A DNA stretch of 64,000 bases from contig CBDCXE010000005.1 in NCBI GenBank assembly GCA_965223725.1, positions 372,001-436,000 of the forward strand, in the 5' to 3' direction. The notes below the pieces were generated by a model. That model searched no databases, had not been told where the DNA came from, and saw nothing but the letters and a program-made list of their open reading frames with translations. The position numbers were made by a program, and so were the translations under genes. Source of the stretch: CBDCXE01 sp965223725 [NCBI: Nitrospinota bacterium]. Its GTDB lineage: Bacteria > Nitrospinota_A > UBA7883. This document shows, piece after piece, positions 40,951-46,184 of this stretch (positions are counted from its first letter, which is position 1; each line of letters opens with the position of its first letter).

Positions 40951-42042
40951 CTAGCTGACAGCTTCCTTCACAGCATCAACAATCCTATCCTGATCATCAT
41001 CCGGTAAATATGGATGCATCGGCAGTGACATTACCTGTGCGCTGACCTGTTCCGAAACCGGGAACTCCCCCTTGGCATAGCCCAAATAGCTGAAAGCCGG
41101 CTGTTGATGCAATGCTATGGGGTAGTGGATCGCCGTGGGTATACCTTGCTCATTCAGCCTGGCGCAGACATTGTCACGCTGATATACCTGGATGGTATAT
41201 TGCGCATAGACATGCGTGTTTTCCCTCGCCATATACGGAACAACCACAGAGCCATTAAGCAACTCCGTATACCGGGCGCCAATCCTTGCGCGCGATTTCA
41301 ACTCTTCAGGGAAGATCGCCAGCTTTTCCAGCAGCACCGCCGCCTGCAAGGTGTCCATCCTTCCGTTCAGGCCGATAGCGGCATGGTTATATCGACGGTC
41401 CTGGCCATGGTTCAGGATCTGCCGCATTTTGAGGGCCAGATCATCATCATCAGTGAAACAGGCACCGCCGTCGCCATAACAGCCCAATGGTTTTGCCGGG
41501 AAAAAGCTGGTCACCCCGATTTCTGTTAATGCGCATGATCTTTTGCCATGGTATGTGGCGCCAAAGCTTTGGGCGCCATCTTCTATCACATGCAGGTTAT
41601 GCTTTTTGGCGATAACGTTGATTGCGTCACAATCGGCGCACTGACCGAACAGGCTGACCGGTATGATCGCTTTGGTTCGGCCGGTTATGGCGTTTTCTAA
41701 CAGGGCAGGGTTGATGTTGTATGTCTTTGGGTCTATTTCCACGAATACTGGCTTTGCGCCTAGTATTGCGATGGCTTCTGCGGTGGCGATGAACGTAAAA
41801 GGCGCAGTGATTACTTCGTCCCCGTTTTTAACACCGATCGCCATCAGGGCGACAATCAACGCGTCTGTACCGCTGGAAACGCAGACCGAGTGCTTAGACC
41901 CGGTAAATTCAGCCAGCTTACCCTCCAGCTCAGTGATTTCCGGGCCCATAATGTAGCGCCCGTGGTCGAAAACAGTTTGAATTCTGGTTTGAACTTTTTC
42001 GCTGATATTGCGATATTGTTCTTTTAAGTCAATAAATTCCAT
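40951..42042 (-). CDS. DegT/DnrJ/EryC1/StrS-family PLP aminotransferase
   Basis: A 363-residue sugar aminotransferase of the DegT family. Visible are the N-terminal EFIDLKEQYRNI, VCVSSGTDALIVALMAIG, the DGAQSFGATYHGKRSC stretch, and the PLP-lysine region TSFFPAKPLGCYGDGGACF. Such enzymes transaminate keto-sugar nucleotides for surface polysaccharides. It lies alone, away from the glycosyltransferases at 17-21 kb. Its 5' side is the AT-rich tract into which the transposon inserted. Confidence 0.93.
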   Translation of the reverse strand: MEFIDLKEQYRNISEKVQTRIQTVFDHGRYIMGPEITELEGKLAEFTGSKHSVCVSSGTDALIVALMAIGVKNGDEVITAPFTFIATAEAIAILGAKPVFVEIDPKTYNINPALLENAITGRTKAIIPVSLFGQCADCDAINVIAKKHNLHVIEDGAQSFGATYHGKRSCALTEIGVTSFFPAKPLGCYGDGGACFTDDDDLALKMRQILNHGQDRRYNHAAIGLNGRMDTLQAAVLLEKLAIFPEELKSRARIGARYTELLNGSVVVPYMARENTHVYAQYTIQVYQRDNVCARLNEQGIPTAIHYPIALHQQPAFSYLGYAKGEFPVSEQVSAQVMSLPMHPYLPDDDQDRIVDAVKEAVS

Positions 42043-42280: not shown

Positions 42281-42288
42281 AAATTGTG
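42281..42288 (+). repeat. Target site duplication, left copy (AAATTGTG)
   Basis: The eight bases immediately outside the left inverted repeat are identical, in the same orientation, to the eight bases outside the right repeat (45642-45649). This is direct evidence of a transposition event with an 8-bp staggered cut. The size is within the range known for IS1-family elements. Confidence 0.9.
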
Positions 42289-42308
42289 GGTAGTGGGTCA
42301 GTTTGAAT
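42289..42308 (+). repeat. Transposon left terminal inverted repeat
   Basis: The sequence GGTAGTGGGTCAGTTTGAAT is the exact reverse complement of 45622-45641. Matching stops at base 21 inward. Seven terminal bases (GGTAGTG) can also pair with CACTACC at 42316-42322, so the tip might form a hairpin. Confidence 0.93.
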
Positions 42309-42353
42309 CGTAGCACACTACCACTCACCACTTCAGTATTGTATAATGATCGC

Positions 42354-42584
42354 ATGAAAAAGAAAGTTAAACGTCCACGGGATTTAAACCAGCGGGCCGC
42401 TTCAATCGTTAAAGCCGCCACCGAGGGTGAAACAGTTGAGGATGACGGCAAAAACCCAGCCGCTGTGGAGCTAGGCAGGTTGGGTGGACTGAAAGGCGGT
42501 AAAGCTCGTGCCAAAAAACTCACGCCAGAAGAACGATCCGAAATAGCCAAAAAGGCCGCCAAAGTGCGCTGGGGCACTCAATAG
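42354..42584 (+). CDS. Small basic GGLKGGKAR-type protein, transposon passenger
   Basis: A 76-residue Lys/Arg/Ala-rich protein. The C-terminal half, GRLGGLKGGKARAKKL followed by TPEERSEIAKKAAKVRW, is a common motif of small bacterial proteins sometimes called histone-like or KGG-type; nucleic-acid binding is suspected from charge but not shown here. A TATAAT hexamer at 42342-42347 ends only six bases before ATG 42354, so transcription from it would give a leaderless message. It is the first gene inside the left end of the transposon. Confidence 0.7.
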   Translation: MKKKVKRPRDLNQRAASIVKAATEGETVEDDGKNPAAVELGRLGGLKGGKARAKKLTPEERSEIAKKAAKVRWGTQ

Positions 42585-42648
42585 CCTCTTAAATACGAAG
42601 TACTGTCATCTCGCCAAAACAATAAATTAACACTTTGGGGTTTTTATA

Positions 42649-42676
42649 TTGCAAACTAAACAAAACATGGTATAAT
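42649..42676 (+). promoter_or_regulatory. Sigma70-like promoter of the passenger gene pair
   Basis: A -35 box TTGCAA (42649-42654) and a perfect -10 box TATAAT (42671-42676) are separated by 16 bases. They lie 44 bases before the ATG of the 225-residue protein. This would drive the two-gene module, and perhaps the tRNA-like gene behind it, independently of the transposase. Confidence 0.65.
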
Positions 42677-42719
42677 ATGCGCATAACTAAAATCGCTGAA
42701 CGAATAAGGAATTATATAG

Positions 42720-43397
42720 ATGAATAATCGCAAGCCCATTAACAAGCTCCTGTTTGATTCTATCTTGTCTGATGTGCCTCATGAGTTTTTACGGGAACTC
42801 CCTATTATTAGGGAGCAGGTATATGGTGAGACTTATGAACGAGTATTAAATGATTACAAGTATGAGGATGCCGAGGCATCTTATCTTCTGCCACATATGC
42901 GCCGAGCCGCGTTTGAAAGCCTGTTTCGAAGTAGAGCAAAAGCTTACGGTCTCGTAGCAACTATCGAGTCTAACAAGAAAAATAATGCATACTATACTGT
43001 TGTAAGGGCAGGTAGGTTTCATCTAACAGCTTCTTTTGTTCGCAATGAAAATGATTTCGTTCGGCATGCGCATTTTAGAGATAAGCATGCTTCATTAAAT
43101 GGGGTTCTGGCTCAACTGGATTGGGTTAAACCAGATAAACATACAGTAGTCAATGATCTCTATGCGATAGTTCTGCATGGAGCGGATGCAAGGAACTCTA
43201 ATCCTGATACCTTCAATGACACAGGTGGATTTCTGCAAATAGCCATCCCTTCAGACGATAACAAATGTTGGGTGGAGACATACAATATTTTTGATTTACT
43301 GAATATTCTTGAACAGAGACGCATGGACGGGCACGCAAATATGCCAGACCAAGCTATACCATCGCGAAAGCGCAAAAGGGAGAATGGTAGCAACTAA
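42720..43397 (+). CDS. Unknown 225-residue protein, probable partner (toxin candidate) of the XRE/ImmA protein
   Basis: I do not recognise an annotated domain. The protein has no signal or membrane segment. The N-terminal half is helical (HEFLRELPIIREQVYGETYERVL), the middle is a beta-rich stretch (YYTVVRAGRFHLTASFVRNEND), and later segments read NDLYAIVLHGADARN and GGFLQIAIPSDDNKCWVE. The C-terminus is a short basic tail. The TAA stop is followed with no gap by the ATG of the metallopeptidase gene, so translation is coupled. A pair of an unknown protein and an XRE-HTH/COG2856 peptidase is the layout of the RosmerTA antiphage toxin-antitoxin system; whether this protein is a true RmrT homologue is inference. 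Confidence 0.6.
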   Translation: MNNRKPINKLLFDSILSDVPHEFLRELPIIREQVYGETYERVLNDYKYEDAEASYLLPHMRRAAFESLFRSRAKAYGLVATIESNKKNNAYYTVVRAGRFHLTASFVRNENDFVRHAHFRDKHASLNGVLAQLDWVKPDKHTVVNDLYAIVLHGADARNSNPDTFNDTGGFLQIAIPSDDNKCWVETYNIFDLLNILEQRRMDGHANMPDQAIPSRKRKRENGSN

Positions 43398-44606
43398 ATG
43401 AGAAAAAACATATCAGGATTTTACGGCTCTAGATTGGCGCAAGCTAGAGAAGCCCGTGGCCTTTCGTGTGCAGATATAGCACGCTATGTCCAAGTATCTA
43501 GAGCCTCAGTTTCAAACTATGAGGCAGGCAAACAAATGCCACGACCTGATGTTATAGAAAAGATATCCAATATTTTTAATTTACCTACATCTTTTTTTAT
43601 GTTTGATGTGCCAAAGCTTCAACGGAATACTATTTTTTATAGATCTAACAATTCGGCTATTAAAGCTGCAAAGATAAAAGCAGGAAGACGCTATGAATGG
43701 TTAAGGGAAATAGCTTTATATCTTCAGGAATATTTTGATTTCCCAAAGGTCAATATGCCTTCTTTTGATTTGCCGGATGACTTTGAAAAAATTTCTATGG
43801 ATCAGATTGAAAAGATTGCTTTAAAATGTAGGAAGTATTTTGGTATAGATGGGGGGCCAGCGCCTAACATGATATTGTTGCTTGAAAATAATGGTGTCAT
43901 AGTTTCCCAAGGGTATTTTGAGGCAGAAAAACTTGATGCTTTTTCGGAAAATATCTTGAATGAGCACCCATTTGTTTTTCTTGGTTTAGACAAGACGAGT
44001 GCTGTGCGGTCCAGGTTTGATGCTGCGCATGAGCTAGCTCACCTGATATTGCATAGTTCTGTCAAGCAAACACGGATAAATAACAAAAGATCATTCAAGA
44101 TATTAGAAGACCAAGCTCACCGGTTTGCAGGAGCTTTTCTTTTGCCTGAAAAAGATTTTTTAGATGAACTCTGGTCTCCTACTTTGGATGCGTTTAGAGC
44201 ATTAAAACCTAGGTGGAAAGCTTCTGTTGGAGCTCAAATAATGCGATCTAGTCAGCTTGAAATTGTTTCTGATGATCAGGTGAAGCGCTTATGGATCAAC
44301 TACAATCGAAGGGGTTGGAGAAATAATGAGCCATTAGATGACAAATTAGAGAGAGAAAAATGTCGAGTCTTGCGGCGCAGTTTTGAACTTATGGTACAGG
44401 AAAATATTAGGAGCAAAGAGCAAATCCTTGAGGATTTACGACTATTTCCAGGAGATATAGTAGAGTTAGCCGGTCTACCAAGTGGCTTCTTTTCGGATAG
44501 AGAGGCTGAGGTAGTACCTTTGCCGAAAATAAGGAGCTTGAAAACAAGATCATCTTCTGTATTAAGTGAGCGCGGAAAAATAATAGATTTCCCCAAAGGC
44601 GAATAA
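43398..44606 (+). CDS. XRE helix-turn-helix plus ImmA/IrrE-type metallopeptidase (antitoxin/regulator candidate)
   Basis: A 402-residue two-domain protein. Residues ~7-65 are an XRE HTH domain (RLAQAREARGLSCADIARYVQVSRASVSNYEAGKQMP). Residues ~165-270 are an ImmA/IrrE (COG2856, DUF955) peptidase with the zinc motif HELAH in FDAAHELAHLILH and a later FAGAFLLP helix with acidic residues that usually complete the site. The last ~120 residues continue as a mostly helical region. Relatives cleave or sense repressors (ImmA of ICEBs1) or neutralise a partner toxin. It directly abuts the 225-residue gene and is 5 bases from a tRNA-like gene. Codon use is AT-rich compared with the host genes. Confidence 0.88.
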   Translation: MRKNISGFYGSRLAQAREARGLSCADIARYVQVSRASVSNYEAGKQMPRPDVIEKISNIFNLPTSFFMFDVPKLQRNTIFYRSNNSAIKAAKIKAGRRYEWLREIALYLQEYFDFPKVNMPSFDLPDDFEKISMDQIEKIALKCRKYFGIDGGPAPNMILLLENNGVIVSQGYFEAEKLDAFSENILNEHPFVFLGLDKTSAVRSRFDAAHELAHLILHSSVKQTRINNKRSFKILEDQAHRFAGAFLLPEKDFLDELWSPTLDAFRALKPRWKASVGAQIMRSSQLEIVSDDQVKRLWINYNRRGWRNNEPLDDKLEREKCRVLRRSFELMVQENIRSKEQILEDLRLFPGDIVELAGLPSGFFSDREAEVVPLPKIRSLKTRSSSVLSERGKIIDFPKGE

Positions 44607-44611
44607 TTAGA

Positions 44612-44688
44612 GCCCCCGTGAATCAATTGGATAGATTACTTGACTACTAATCTTGTTATTGCCAGTTCGAGTCTGGCCGGGGGCTTCA
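44612..44688 (+). tRNA. tRNA-like gene with ACT anticodon inside the transposon
   Basis: The sequence folds as a class I tRNA. The acceptor stem GCCCCCG/CGGGGGC (44612-44618, 44678-44684) and the T-arm GCCAG-TTCGAGT-CTGGC (44661-44677) are perfect. The D-stem AATC/GATT is perfect, with loop AATTGGATA keeping A14, G18, G19 and A21. A15 and T48 can form the Levitt pair. The 23 bases between the D- and T-stems give a standard 5-base variable loop and a 7-base anticodon loop CTACTAA with T33 and A37, so the anticodon is ACT (44646-44648). The anticodon stem CTTGA/TCTTG has two central T-T mismatches, and the 3' end after discriminator T73 is TCA, not CCA. Possibly functional, possibly a decayed or decoy tRNA. 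Confidence 0.72.
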
Positions 44689-44754
44689 TTGCCTATATAA
44701 TAGTGCATATCTTGTAAAAAATCAAGAAAAACCTATTTATATTGATTTTTATGC

Positions 44755-44783
44755 TTGACTGATTAGGCATAAGGGTGTATATT
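44755..44783 (+). promoter_or_regulatory. Sigma70 promoter of the transposase, giving a leaderless message
   Basis: TTGACT (44755-44760) and TATATT (44778-44783) are separated by exactly 17 bases. The likely transcription start, about seven bases after the -10 box, falls on the A of ATG 44790. No ribosome site lies at a useful distance from that ATG. Leaderless translation would keep transposase output low. Confidence 0.6.
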
Positions 44784-44789
44784 GTAATT

Positions 44790-45632
44790 ATGAATAGGTT
44801 ATCAGTAAAGAAACGGGCGCAAATACTTTCATGTTTGGTTGAGGGCAATTCTATCCGTTCCACAGTACGAATAACAGGAGCCGCCAAAAATACCGTTGTG
44901 AAGTTGCTGGCCGATGTTGGTAGGGCTTGCAGTATTTATCAGAGTGAGCATTTACGAAACCTGCCTTGCAAAAATATCCAGGTTGATGAGATATGGAGTT
45001 TTTGCTATTCGAAACAAAAGAATGTTCCGACTGATAAACGAGGTCTGTTTGGCTATGGTGATGTTTGGACATGGACGGCTTTATGCGCGGATACCAAGCT
45101 TGTACCATGCTGGCATATCGGGAGTCGTGACGCTGTGGCCGCTAATATCTTCATAGAAGATTTGGCTTCCCGTCTGGCCAATCGAGTCCAGCTAACATCA
45201 GACGGCTATAAACCTTATCTGGAAGCCGTAGAGCGAACATTTGGAAATGATATAGACTATGCAATGCTGGTTAAACTATACGGCAAGAGCGCGGAAAGTG
45301 AAAAGCGGTACAGTCCAGCCGATTGTGTCGGCACAGAGAAAAGTACAATAACAGGTAACCCCGATAAAAAGAAGGTTTCCACATCTTTTGTCGAGCGCCA
45401 GAATCTCACAATGAGAATGGGCATGAGGCGGTTCACCAGATTAACAAACGGGTTCTCAAAGAAAGTGGATAATCATGAACACGCAATCTCTTTGCACTTC
45501 ATGTACTATAATTTTGTGCGGATACATAAATCATTACGAGTAACACCGGCAATGGAAGCTGGTGTTACTGATCATCTATGGACATTAGAAGATATCGTTC
45601 AAATGGCTGATGAAATAAATAATTCAAACTGA
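44790..45632 (+). CDS. IS1-family DDE transposase
   Basis: A 280-residue transposase of the single-frame IS1-like type that lacks the frameshifted InsA/InsB arrangement of classical IS1. A short N-terminal HTH (RAQILSCLVEGNSIRSTVRITGAAKNTVVKLL) is followed by the DDE core: first Asp in QVDEIWSF, second in TSDGYKPYLEAVE, and the Glu in FVERQNLTMRM. The C-terminal MRRFTRLTNGFSKK and YYNFVRIHKSLRVTPAMEAGVTDHLW are typical of this group. The stop codon lies inside the right terminal repeat. A GTG at 44775 would add five residues but overlaps the promoter. The gene is intact, so the element may still be active. Confidence 0.93.
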   Translation: MNRLSVKKRAQILSCLVEGNSIRSTVRITGAAKNTVVKLLADVGRACSIYQSEHLRNLPCKNIQVDEIWSFCYSKQKNVPTDKRGLFGYGDVWTWTALCADTKLVPCWHIGSRDAVAANIFIEDLASRLANRVQLTSDGYKPYLEAVERTFGNDIDYAMLVKLYGKSAESEKRYSPADCVGTEKSTITGNPDKKKVSTSFVERQNLTMRMGMRRFTRLTNGFSKKVDNHEHAISLHFMYYNFVRIHKSLRVTPAMEAGVTDHLWTLEDIVQMADEINNSN

Positions 45633-45641
45633 CCCACTACC
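45622..45641 (-). repeat. Transposon right terminal inverted repeat
   Basis: Exact reverse complement of the left repeat at 42289-42308, 20 of 20 bases. It overlaps the last codons and stop of the transposase gene, as in other IS1-family elements. Confidence 0.93.
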
Positions 45642-45649
45642 AAATTGTG
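45642..45649 (+). repeat. Target site duplication, right copy (AAATTGTG)
   Basis: Identical to 42281-42288. Removing the element and one copy rejoins the flanks as GGTAGAATCG, the octamer, then TATTGGCTTG, which is the predicted empty site. Confidence 0.9.
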
Positions 45650-45800: not shown

Positions 45801-46184
45801 ATGATGAAAAAAACAAACGACTTTCAGGATACGAAAAAACTGTTGCTGAGGAAAAAAGCAATATTGCTGAAAGCTGATCATAATTATAGCGAAGAGATAA
45901 AAAAAGAAGTTGAAAACATGCATGGTGATGATGTGGATGTGGCCGAATCAGCCTATGAACAGGAGATGGCTTATCTGTTTAAAAGCAGAGGGCAGGACGA
46001 GATCAAGCTGATAGGCGAAGCCATTGAAAGGATAGACAAAGGAGAATATGGCATCTGCGCCGAATGTGACGAGAAAATAGCCAAAAAAAGGCTCAAGGCG
46101 CTCCCATATTCCATATTATGTGTTGACTGTCAGGAAGAGACAGAGCGCCTGAACGCGGAAGAGCGGGCAGTTTCCCCTCGATAG
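45801..46184 (+). CDS. DksA/TraR-family zinc-finger protein
   Basis: A 127-residue protein with an N-terminal coiled coil and a C-terminal Cys4 zinc finger, CAEC-x17-CVDC (from ICAECDEKIAKKRLKALPYSILCVDCQ). DksA-like proteins enter the RNA polymerase secondary channel and modulate transcription, often with ppGpp. The residues at the coiled-coil tip carry DDVDVAESAYEQEM, broadly like DksA. ATG 45801 and ATG 45804 are adjacent; GGAG at 45794-45797 is better spaced for 45804. rpoZ follows, so the two RNA-polymerase-linked genes may share a transcript. Confidence 0.9.
   Translation: MMKKTNDFQDTKKLLLRKKAILLKADHNYSEEIKKEVENMHGDDVDVAESAYEQEMAYLFKSRGQDEIKLIGEAIERIDKGEYGICAECDEKIAKKRLKALPYSILCVDCQEETERLNAEERAVSPR

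Follow-up and report, generated by a model that had tools for sequence, protein, structure and literature searches.

An IS1-related cargo transposon with a putative RosmerTA pair and a tRNA gene whose anticodon and body disagree in a Nitrospinota genome

The locus studied here raises the question of what a tRNA gene with a serine anticodon and an arginine-like body is doing between the passenger genes and the transposase gene of a transposon. It lies in the window, that is, the whole stretch of 64,000 nt analysed (assembly GCA_965223725.1 of a Nitrospinota bacterium, contig CBDCXE010000005.1, positions 372,001 to 436,000), at 42281–45649, a span that runs from the left through the right target-site duplication and coincides exactly with the one given in an earlier note on this DNA. 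The segment is read here as a cargo transposon related to IS1; the reading as a whole is considered likely, its tRNA part being less firm.

The ends of the element were determined first by their repeats. Terminal inverted repeats (TIRs) of 20 bp at 42289–42308 (+ strand) and 45622–45641 (− strand) were complementary at 20/20 positions and were bordered by the same octamer, AAATTGTG, at 42281–42288 (left target-site duplication) and at 45642–45649 (right duplication). At up to 3 mismatches, the TIR sequence was matched in the window at these two places only, and in none of 100 shuffled sequences. The interior contained four open reading frames (ORFs) without internal stops and one tRNA gene, all on the + strand. 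Flawless ends, an exact duplication and open genes indicate a recent insertion. The G+C content of the element (41.0% vs 52.5% in the remaining window) and that of the third codon positions of its genes (0.32–0.48 vs 0.58–0.75 in five flanking genes) were lower than in the surroundings, and the element therefore probably came from elsewhere. As to its anatomy, an intact and recently inserted cargo transposon of an IS1-related family is practically certain. The completeness of the element, claimed in the earlier note, was thus confirmed by the paired TIRs, the octamer on both sides and an intact transposase, and its passenger genes were identified as a KGG-type ORF and a RosmerTA pair; the title of that note, a transposon with passengers, stands as far as it goes, having left the passengers unnamed and the tRNA gene out.

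The transposase gene (44790–45632, + strand) encodes 280 aa, and its stop codon falls within the right TIR. The protein scored 25.4 bits with Pfam DDE_Tnp_IS1 (PF03400; cut-off 24.1) and 57.3 bits with NCBIfam transpos_IS1 (NF033558), under the cut-off of 100. In seven relatives scanned, transpos_IS1 was the best model in 7/7, always below cut-off (L267 as a 92-aa piece; L numbers denote individual loci). D66 and D138 were conserved in 163/163 aligned transposases and E202 in 162/163, which suggests that they form the DDE catalytic triad. Classical IS1 has two frameshifted ORFs, about 770 bp and usually a 9-bp duplication. The window element is like the IS1 family in its best-scoring transposase family, its DDE residues, its inverted ends and its short duplication, and unlike it in its sub-cut-off NCBIfam score and its 3.35 kb with cargo. 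Because one 280-aa ORF stands in place of two frameshifted ORFs, the transposase group was filed with single-ORF relatives of IS1 and not with classical IS1; the label IS1-type applies in the broad sense of the best Pfam and NCBIfam models but not in the classical sense. The IS1595 family and other 'transporter IS' carry passenger genes, and the window element shares with them a small transposase unit and passengers between simple inverted repeats; it differs from IS1595 in that NCBIfam transpos_IS1595 was at best a weaker match for its relatives (5/7, 21–28 bits, cut-off 75).

A promoter-like site (TTGACT, 17 nt, TATATT) was located by motif scan at 44755–44783 (+ strand), before the transposase gene, and TTGAC-N17-20-TANNNT preceded this gene in 106/236 elements (1.65 in shuffles). 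An operator-like palindrome overlapping the promoter was seen in 35/236 elements (0.05 in shuffles). In annotated phages a single remote relative of the transposase was found, an unannotated one in Brevundimonas phage vB_BpoS-Gurke (ON529850.1:174788-175666; 33% identity, genome of 321 kb).

Two of the passengers are abutting ORFs, rmrT (42720–43397, + strand, 225 aa; PADLOC RmrT, 7.4e-24) and rmrA (43398–44606, + strand, 402 aa; PADLOC RmrA, 1.7e-133). RmrA combines an XRE helix-turn-helix (HTH) with an M78 (ImmA/IrrE) zinc protease (Pfam HTH_3, 1.1e-12; M78, 9.4e-15), and the motif HELAH is present in its translation. No Pfam, NCBIfam or PHROG family was matched by RmrT at E 0.1, and a structure predicted from the single sequence was useless (pLDDT 39.5). 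As in RosmerTA systems, an RmrA with HTH and M78 protease stands beside one of the diverse RmrT proteins and PADLOC models match both, and by homology 42720–44606 is very probably a RosmerTA pair of toxin (rmrT) and antitoxin (rmrA) genes. RosmerTA pairs are described as acting against phages, and one RmrT as depolarising membranes (PMC10440598). Unlike in those systems, the window pair lies inside a TIR-bounded transposon with a tRNA gene directly after it. Relatives of RmrT were not found in plasmids at 1e-5, and none of RmrT or RmrA was confirmed in viral contigs. In the plasmid relative L004, RosmerTA was present and no tRNA was called.

Relatives of the element were collected with five transposase queries from genomes (the best 80 of 564) and viral contigs (the best 80 of 142); with four plasmid loci and the window, the family set comprised 165 loci. 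TIRs were paired in 136/165 loci, in 38 of them with ends identical over 20 bp; the other 29 had no end at all (3) or a single end or non-pairing ends (26). With one mismatch allowed, a duplication was found at 110 of the 136 paired-end loci (8 bp in 109, 9 bp in 1), and it was exact in 107/136. The 110 elements with a duplication were 1323–5278 bp long (median 3031), and nearly every element therefore has room for cargo.

The cargo of the family often consists of toxin–antitoxin or defence genes. Among the 136 elements, XRE/M78 antitoxin-type genes were counted in 35, the gene that usually partners them in 14 and a different partner, CL5, in 7; ClpP-like SDH proteases in 8; DNA methylase, Panacea and proteasome-like genes in 5 each; and NYN in 4, the names of the clusters coming from scanned members only. 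The members of the antitoxin cluster that were scanned were RmrA with its RmrT in L004, RmrA in L050 and PD-Lambda-2 B-type proteins in L001 and L002. The candidate assignment of CL5 as RmrT was dropped (2/7 members scanned, no PADLOC family matched). The cargo of L065, L079, L049, L066, L082, L143, L001 and L002 was seen to include proteasome-like hydrolases, ClpP-like SDH proteases, NYN, Panacea and PD-Lambda-2 B-type proteins, an AAA ATPase and a DNA methylase with a weak Mrr match. In the window element, the leftmost ORF (42354–42584, + strand) encodes a KGG-type small basic protein of 76 aa (cluster CL0), for which no Pfam or NCBIfam family scored above cut-off and which weakly matched PHROG 2384, a family of unknown function. 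Cluster CL0 was present in 91/136 elements, lay at the left end on the + strand in 80/82 counted copies, and is a hallmark of the left end in this transposon family.

All five bacterial phyla that were sampled, named after the titles of the seed loci, contained the family. Matches to the window transposase were found at E 1e-30 in 32/245 Nitrospirota, 16/297 Desulfobacterota and 18/398 Pseudomonadota genomes, and at E 1e-60 in 33/297 Acidobacteriota and 5/24 Nitrospinota genomes (all counts include the seed genome of each group). The nearest element among the matches listed, L005, belongs to a Nitrospinota metagenome-assembled genome, and its transposase is 85% identical to that of the window. 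The TyrRS of the window host places this host probably near Nitrospinota, the highest identity being 73% in Nitrospinota (21/24 genomes matched) and 66% among the matches listed for a sample of Pseudomonadota (151/249 matched). Six close pairs with unlike upstream DNA were compared (L252/L254, L252/L259, L254/L259, L022/L020, L020/L044 and L007/L011): similarity started 31–59 nt before the transposase start, at the promoter, and extended to the transposase end or past it. L022 and L020 had an additional short piece in common near the left end, and in L009/L046, L067/L069 and L273/L283 parts of the cargo were common as well. Between the window and L005, similarity started precisely at the 5' end of the tRNA gene, upstream of which lies rmrA in the window and no rmrA in L005. 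Where the cargo of paired relatives differs, the unit of transposase promoter, transposase and right end is retained and the left cargo is exchanged.

The tRNA gene of the window element (44611–44687, + strand) was called by ARAGORN and matched Rfam RF00005 with 50.5 bits (gathering 29). It starts 4 nt past the rmrA stop, between cargo and transposase. Its anticodon, ACU, corresponds to the serine codon AGU, and its class-I body is nearest to host tRNA-Arg(CCU) (0.69), which makes it a candidate dual-identity tRNA. It is short, with a T stem of 5 bp and an acceptor of 7 to 9 pairs, depending on how it is drawn; the 8/4 or 9/3 acceptor domain and the serine identity of allo-tRNAs were not found in it.

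Across the family, a tRNA gene was found upstream of the transposase in 31/233 distinct elements (those with 400 nt or more of upstream sequence and a transposase reading of at least 250 aa), 57–669 nt away and twice on the other strand. L268 and L272 carry tRNAs but fall outside the 233, their transposase readings being under 250 aa; the tRNAs of L319 and L326, about 1 kb off on the other strand, were not counted. Two further uncounted genes may lie inside elements: L023:4892-4964, about 1 kb before the transposase and right of a left end, and L044:1658-1748, behind the transposase and seen with the covariance model only. The covariance search covered L001–L164 and the window; model R1 contained 12 tRNAs, two of them from L150, where element ends were not found. 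In the first set, 15 tRNAs ended at most 350 nt upstream of the transposase in 57 kb, vs 35 in 1.72 Mb elsewhere, a density 13-fold higher than in the rest of the same loci. On the transposase tree, 28 changes were needed to explain the presence of a tRNA, which indicates frequent gain and loss. A geometry scan for missed tRNAs gave 17 matches, of which the two outside the known set (L087 and L122) are probably chance (0.2 expected in shuffles), and blastn gave one new 23-nt match, in L345 (E 0.001).

As a yardstick for body against anticodon, 129 other tRNAs were assigned their nearest body by leave-one-out (L023, among them, may lie in an element). The nearest body was that of the anticodon isotype in 108/129 and of the same class in 129/129. 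In the first set of element tRNAs, it was at odds with the anticodon in 16/17, and the remaining one has an 8-nt loop. Such misfitting tRNAs were met with repeatedly, ahead of many different transposase backbones. All 8/8 first-set tRNAs with GCU or ACU anticodons were of short class I, whereas the reference tRNA-Ser were long-armed in 8/8 (88–93 nt). Ser-type bodies were combined with a UAA anticodon, for Leu, in L009 and L046, and Leu-type bodies with UUA, reading the stop UAA, in L038 and L101 and with UGG, for Pro, in L007. The second set included two long-arm UAU tRNAs (L272 and L323), which look like the commonest type of allo-tRNA.

Some of these genes were unusual in other respects. 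The UUA-anticodon tRNAs of L101 (5776-5859) and L038 (5768-5854) are 93% identical on two distant transposase backbones, and the L101 element, of only 1323 bp, has, besides its tRNA and transposase genes, an ORF with a KGG-like beginning. Odd tRNA-like folds, found with the covariance model and the geometry scan and missed by ARAGORN, were seen beside or in place of normal tRNAs at L006:5294-5360, L017:218-285 and L037:5766-5832. At L154:5841-5939, a tRNA-like gene whose anticodon loop is extended by a long insert follows directly after a small cargo gene.

Fourteen tRNAs with a GCU or ACU anticodon and a short body were grouped as the AGY type, a choice from which C35, U36 and the lack of C34 and U34 follow; position 34 was A in 6 and G in 8. 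The type required 11 changes on the transposase tree and is therefore recurrent. In the 14 copies, 96.2% of stem cells were paired vs 68.2% in shuffles, and double-change cells numbered 71 vs 19.5, a value that 0/500 shuffles attained. The window tRNA is among the structurally weaker copies; between it and that of L005, four compensating double stem changes were found. The nearest body was that of tRNA-Arg in 6/14 (window, L038, L091, L273, L299 and L342), with a tie in L005, and the three E. coli matches listed for the L022 tRNA were all tRNA-Arg. A20, described as the main identity base of bacterial tRNA-Arg (PMC9976931), was present in 14/14 AGY-type tRNAs, 11/11 host tRNA-Arg and 0/8 host tRNA-Ser.

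Codon use in the transposase genes was compared with these tRNAs. Misreading of AGY would predict that the transposase shuns this codon where serine matters. In 13 AGY-type elements, the mean conservation of serines encoded by AGY minus that of serines encoded by TCN was −0.177, vs +0.074 in 206 tRNA-less elements (p = 6e-5; label permutation, 5e-5; matched for GC at third positions, 5e-4). In the controls, 18 elements with other tRNAs gave +0.088 (p = 0.71), and p values ranged from 0.066 to 0.91 in seven further comparisons of codons. At six columns in which serine exceeded 70%, AGY made up 22/74 serine codons in AGY-type elements vs 549/1154, the drop being concentrated in three of the six. 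At columns where arginine was commoner than serine (10% or more), AGY was found at 8/100 vs 35/1369 (p = 0.007), and in the TCN control at 4/146 vs 45/2002. A codon lock, in which essential arginines of the transposase would be written AGY throughout, was rejected in its simple form, since many AGY codons lie at serine columns.

For the codon that an element's tRNA reads (its own codon), the share in the transposase minus that in the flanks was expressed as a percentile among 105–109 tRNA-less elements. Enrichment of the own codon in the transposase gene was frequent but not universal. For AGT in the window (7/21 in the transposase vs 57/1011 in the flanks) the percentile was 100. First-set percentiles were 100 (window), 100, 90, 95, 97, 94, 92 and 93, and for GCU elements 52, 19, 36 and 99; those of the second set, which was not used for forming the idea, were 64, 56, 75, 91, 76, 99, 6, 97, 63 and 98 (combined p = 0.004). 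The transposase gene ended with TGA in 4/4 UAA-reading elements, which carries little information because 119/207 tRNA-less elements share this ending.

The observations can be joined in one mechanism. The transposase would act on the 20-bp ends and cut the target with an 8-bp stagger; RosmerTA would stabilise the element and guard against phage, the RmrT toxin being restrained by RmrA. The tRNA would be transcribed behind rmrTA, would probably be charged with arginine and would read AGU, and the transposase gene would be tuned to it, so that the transposon would possess, in this tRNA, a decoding component of its own. A functional link between the tRNAs and the transposase codons across the family is moderately favoured by the codon data. 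That AGY codons are translated as arginine in AGY-type elements is given an even chance on the sequences at hand, and the chance that the window's own copy still works is put slightly lower. Only tentatively is it proposed that the tRNAs of the family are private ones of swapped identity and that its transposase is encoded partly in a private code, with AGU and AGC as arginine here and other codons in other lineages, and, just as tentatively, that AGU and AGC, rare in the host, are kept from critical serines and used at basic positions. If so, the tRNA and the transposase would be a single decoding unit working for itself, by which production of the transposase is either limited or assured and which can remain whole when the cargo is exchanged.

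A number of points weigh against this mechanism. The function of the RosmerTA pair is predicted from homology. Arginine was the nearest body in only 6/14 AGY-type tRNAs, the non-tied others being nearest to Thr, Lys or Cys, and A20 also occurs, in a crude reading, in host tRNAs for Ala (6/7), Val (5/7), Gln (3/5) and Lys (1/8). The codon tests were post hoc, having been framed after first looks at the data. At a looser threshold of 5%, the TCN control at arginine columns rises too (13/146 vs 96/2002), and AGT occurs at some conserved serines of the transposases, that of the window included. In the replication, 10/11 elements were testable, with a mean percentile of 0.72 and four under 0.7, and GCU tRNAs were mostly without codon enrichment (percentiles 52, 19, 36, 99, 75, 76 and 6). 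Part of the own-codon enrichment is general A/T bias; when this bias is allowed for within the same genes, the rank of the own codon is still high, with a mean of 0.84 in 13 elements with an A34 or U34 anticodon, a restriction chosen after the GCU result had been seen and in which L009 and L046 are sisters. For the other tRNA types no codon avoidance was found at conserved columns, so that it is only for the AGY type that the data speak for misreading. As for the window tRNA itself, two pairs of its anticodon stem are mismatched, its favoured fold in isolation has a different arm, and CCA is not encoded.

These last defects, and the finding of tRNAs in just 31/233 elements, are what would be expected if the tRNA were a captured host gene in decay without function in the element. 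Against decay stand the compensating stem changes between the window and L005, the covariation over 14 copies, the recurrence of the AGY type on the transposase tree and the codon signals in the transposase, and this explanation is judged unlikely. Equally improbable is plain codon supplementation, in which the tRNA would be charged according to its anticodon and would help with rare transposase codons: it accords with the enrichment of the own codon in the transposase and its rarity in the flanks, and with the codons of the other tRNA types standing at conserved columns with their standard meaning, but the long arm of the reference tRNA-Ser is missing from every first-set GCU or ACU tRNA, and AGY is shunned at conserved serines.

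Less probable still is a tRNA that mistranslates for the cargo or the host, as a toxin-like or stress-type gene behind rmrTA, and not for the transposase. The tRNA follows rmrA by 4 nt and that of L342 follows another cargo gene by 5 nt; dual-identity tRNAs of Streptomyces are reported to mistranslate and to be toxic in E. coli (PMC10365949); and cargo of the wHTH cluster CL7 accompanied tRNAs in 4/11 elements (p = 0.043). However, a tie of the tRNA to a particular cargo family, weak for CL7, was unsupported for four other clusters (p from 0.23 to 0.66), the window and L005 have tRNA and transposase in common with unlike cargo in front, and the codon signals were seen in the transposase (cargo genes were compared roughly only). 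That unrelated neighbours are bracketed by repeats by chance has a negligible probability, given the flawless ends, the exact duplication and the same anatomy in 136/165 loci.

The preferred reading, a cargo transposon with a decoding part of its own, was set beside known tRNA systems. Allo-tRNAs are described as Ser-type tRNAs with non-Ser anticodons, most commonly UAU; one pseudogene of this group overlaps an ORF related to transposons, and a connection with transposons or toxin–antitoxin systems has been suspected (PMC7609411). The L272 and L323 tRNAs resemble the UAU type, whereas that of the window is a class-I tRNA nearest to Arg, with anticodon ACU, inside a defined transposon. The tRNA-ProX genes of Streptomyces are reported as dual-identity tRNAs beside a ProRS-like gene (PMC10365949, PMC11415595); they resemble the element tRNAs in that body and anticodon belong to different amino acids and in having A34 anticodons, but the element tRNAs are of other identities and lie in a transposon, and no synthetase is among the genes of the window element. 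Phage tRNAs, in which mutated anticodon loops are described as escaping nucleases (PMC10264068), are likewise tRNA genes with altered anticodon loops on a mobile element; in the transposon tRNAs, unlike in these, the anticodon itself misfits the body.

In the titles and abstracts of the open-licence papers that the literature searches listed, no description was found of an IS1-type transposon with toxin–antitoxin cargo or a dual-identity tRNA. That toxin–antitoxin and defence genes can be mobile is known; here they are moved by one simple family with a constant transposase unit and exchangeable left cargo. Earlier examples of dual-identity tRNAs were those of Streptomyces and the orphan allo-tRNAs, to which no clear role had been assigned. 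Their recurrence in one transposon family, together with codon adjustment in the transposase, suggests a candidate role, that of mobile elements bringing and using their own genetic-code adaptor; the private code, if true, would give the orphan allo-tRNAs of soil bacteria a home.

A promoter-like site with 10/12 matches lies before rmrT (42649–42676, + strand); it is weak by itself because 14 such sites were found in the region against a shuffle mean of 9.2. No sign of host use of the element was seen in the analyses made, no search beyond these having been aimed at it. On the left, the element adjoins the start of a DegT-type aminotransferase gene (40951–42042, − strand), and on the right it is followed by a DksA/TraR-type gene (45801–46184, + strand); both genes were left undisrupted by the insertion.

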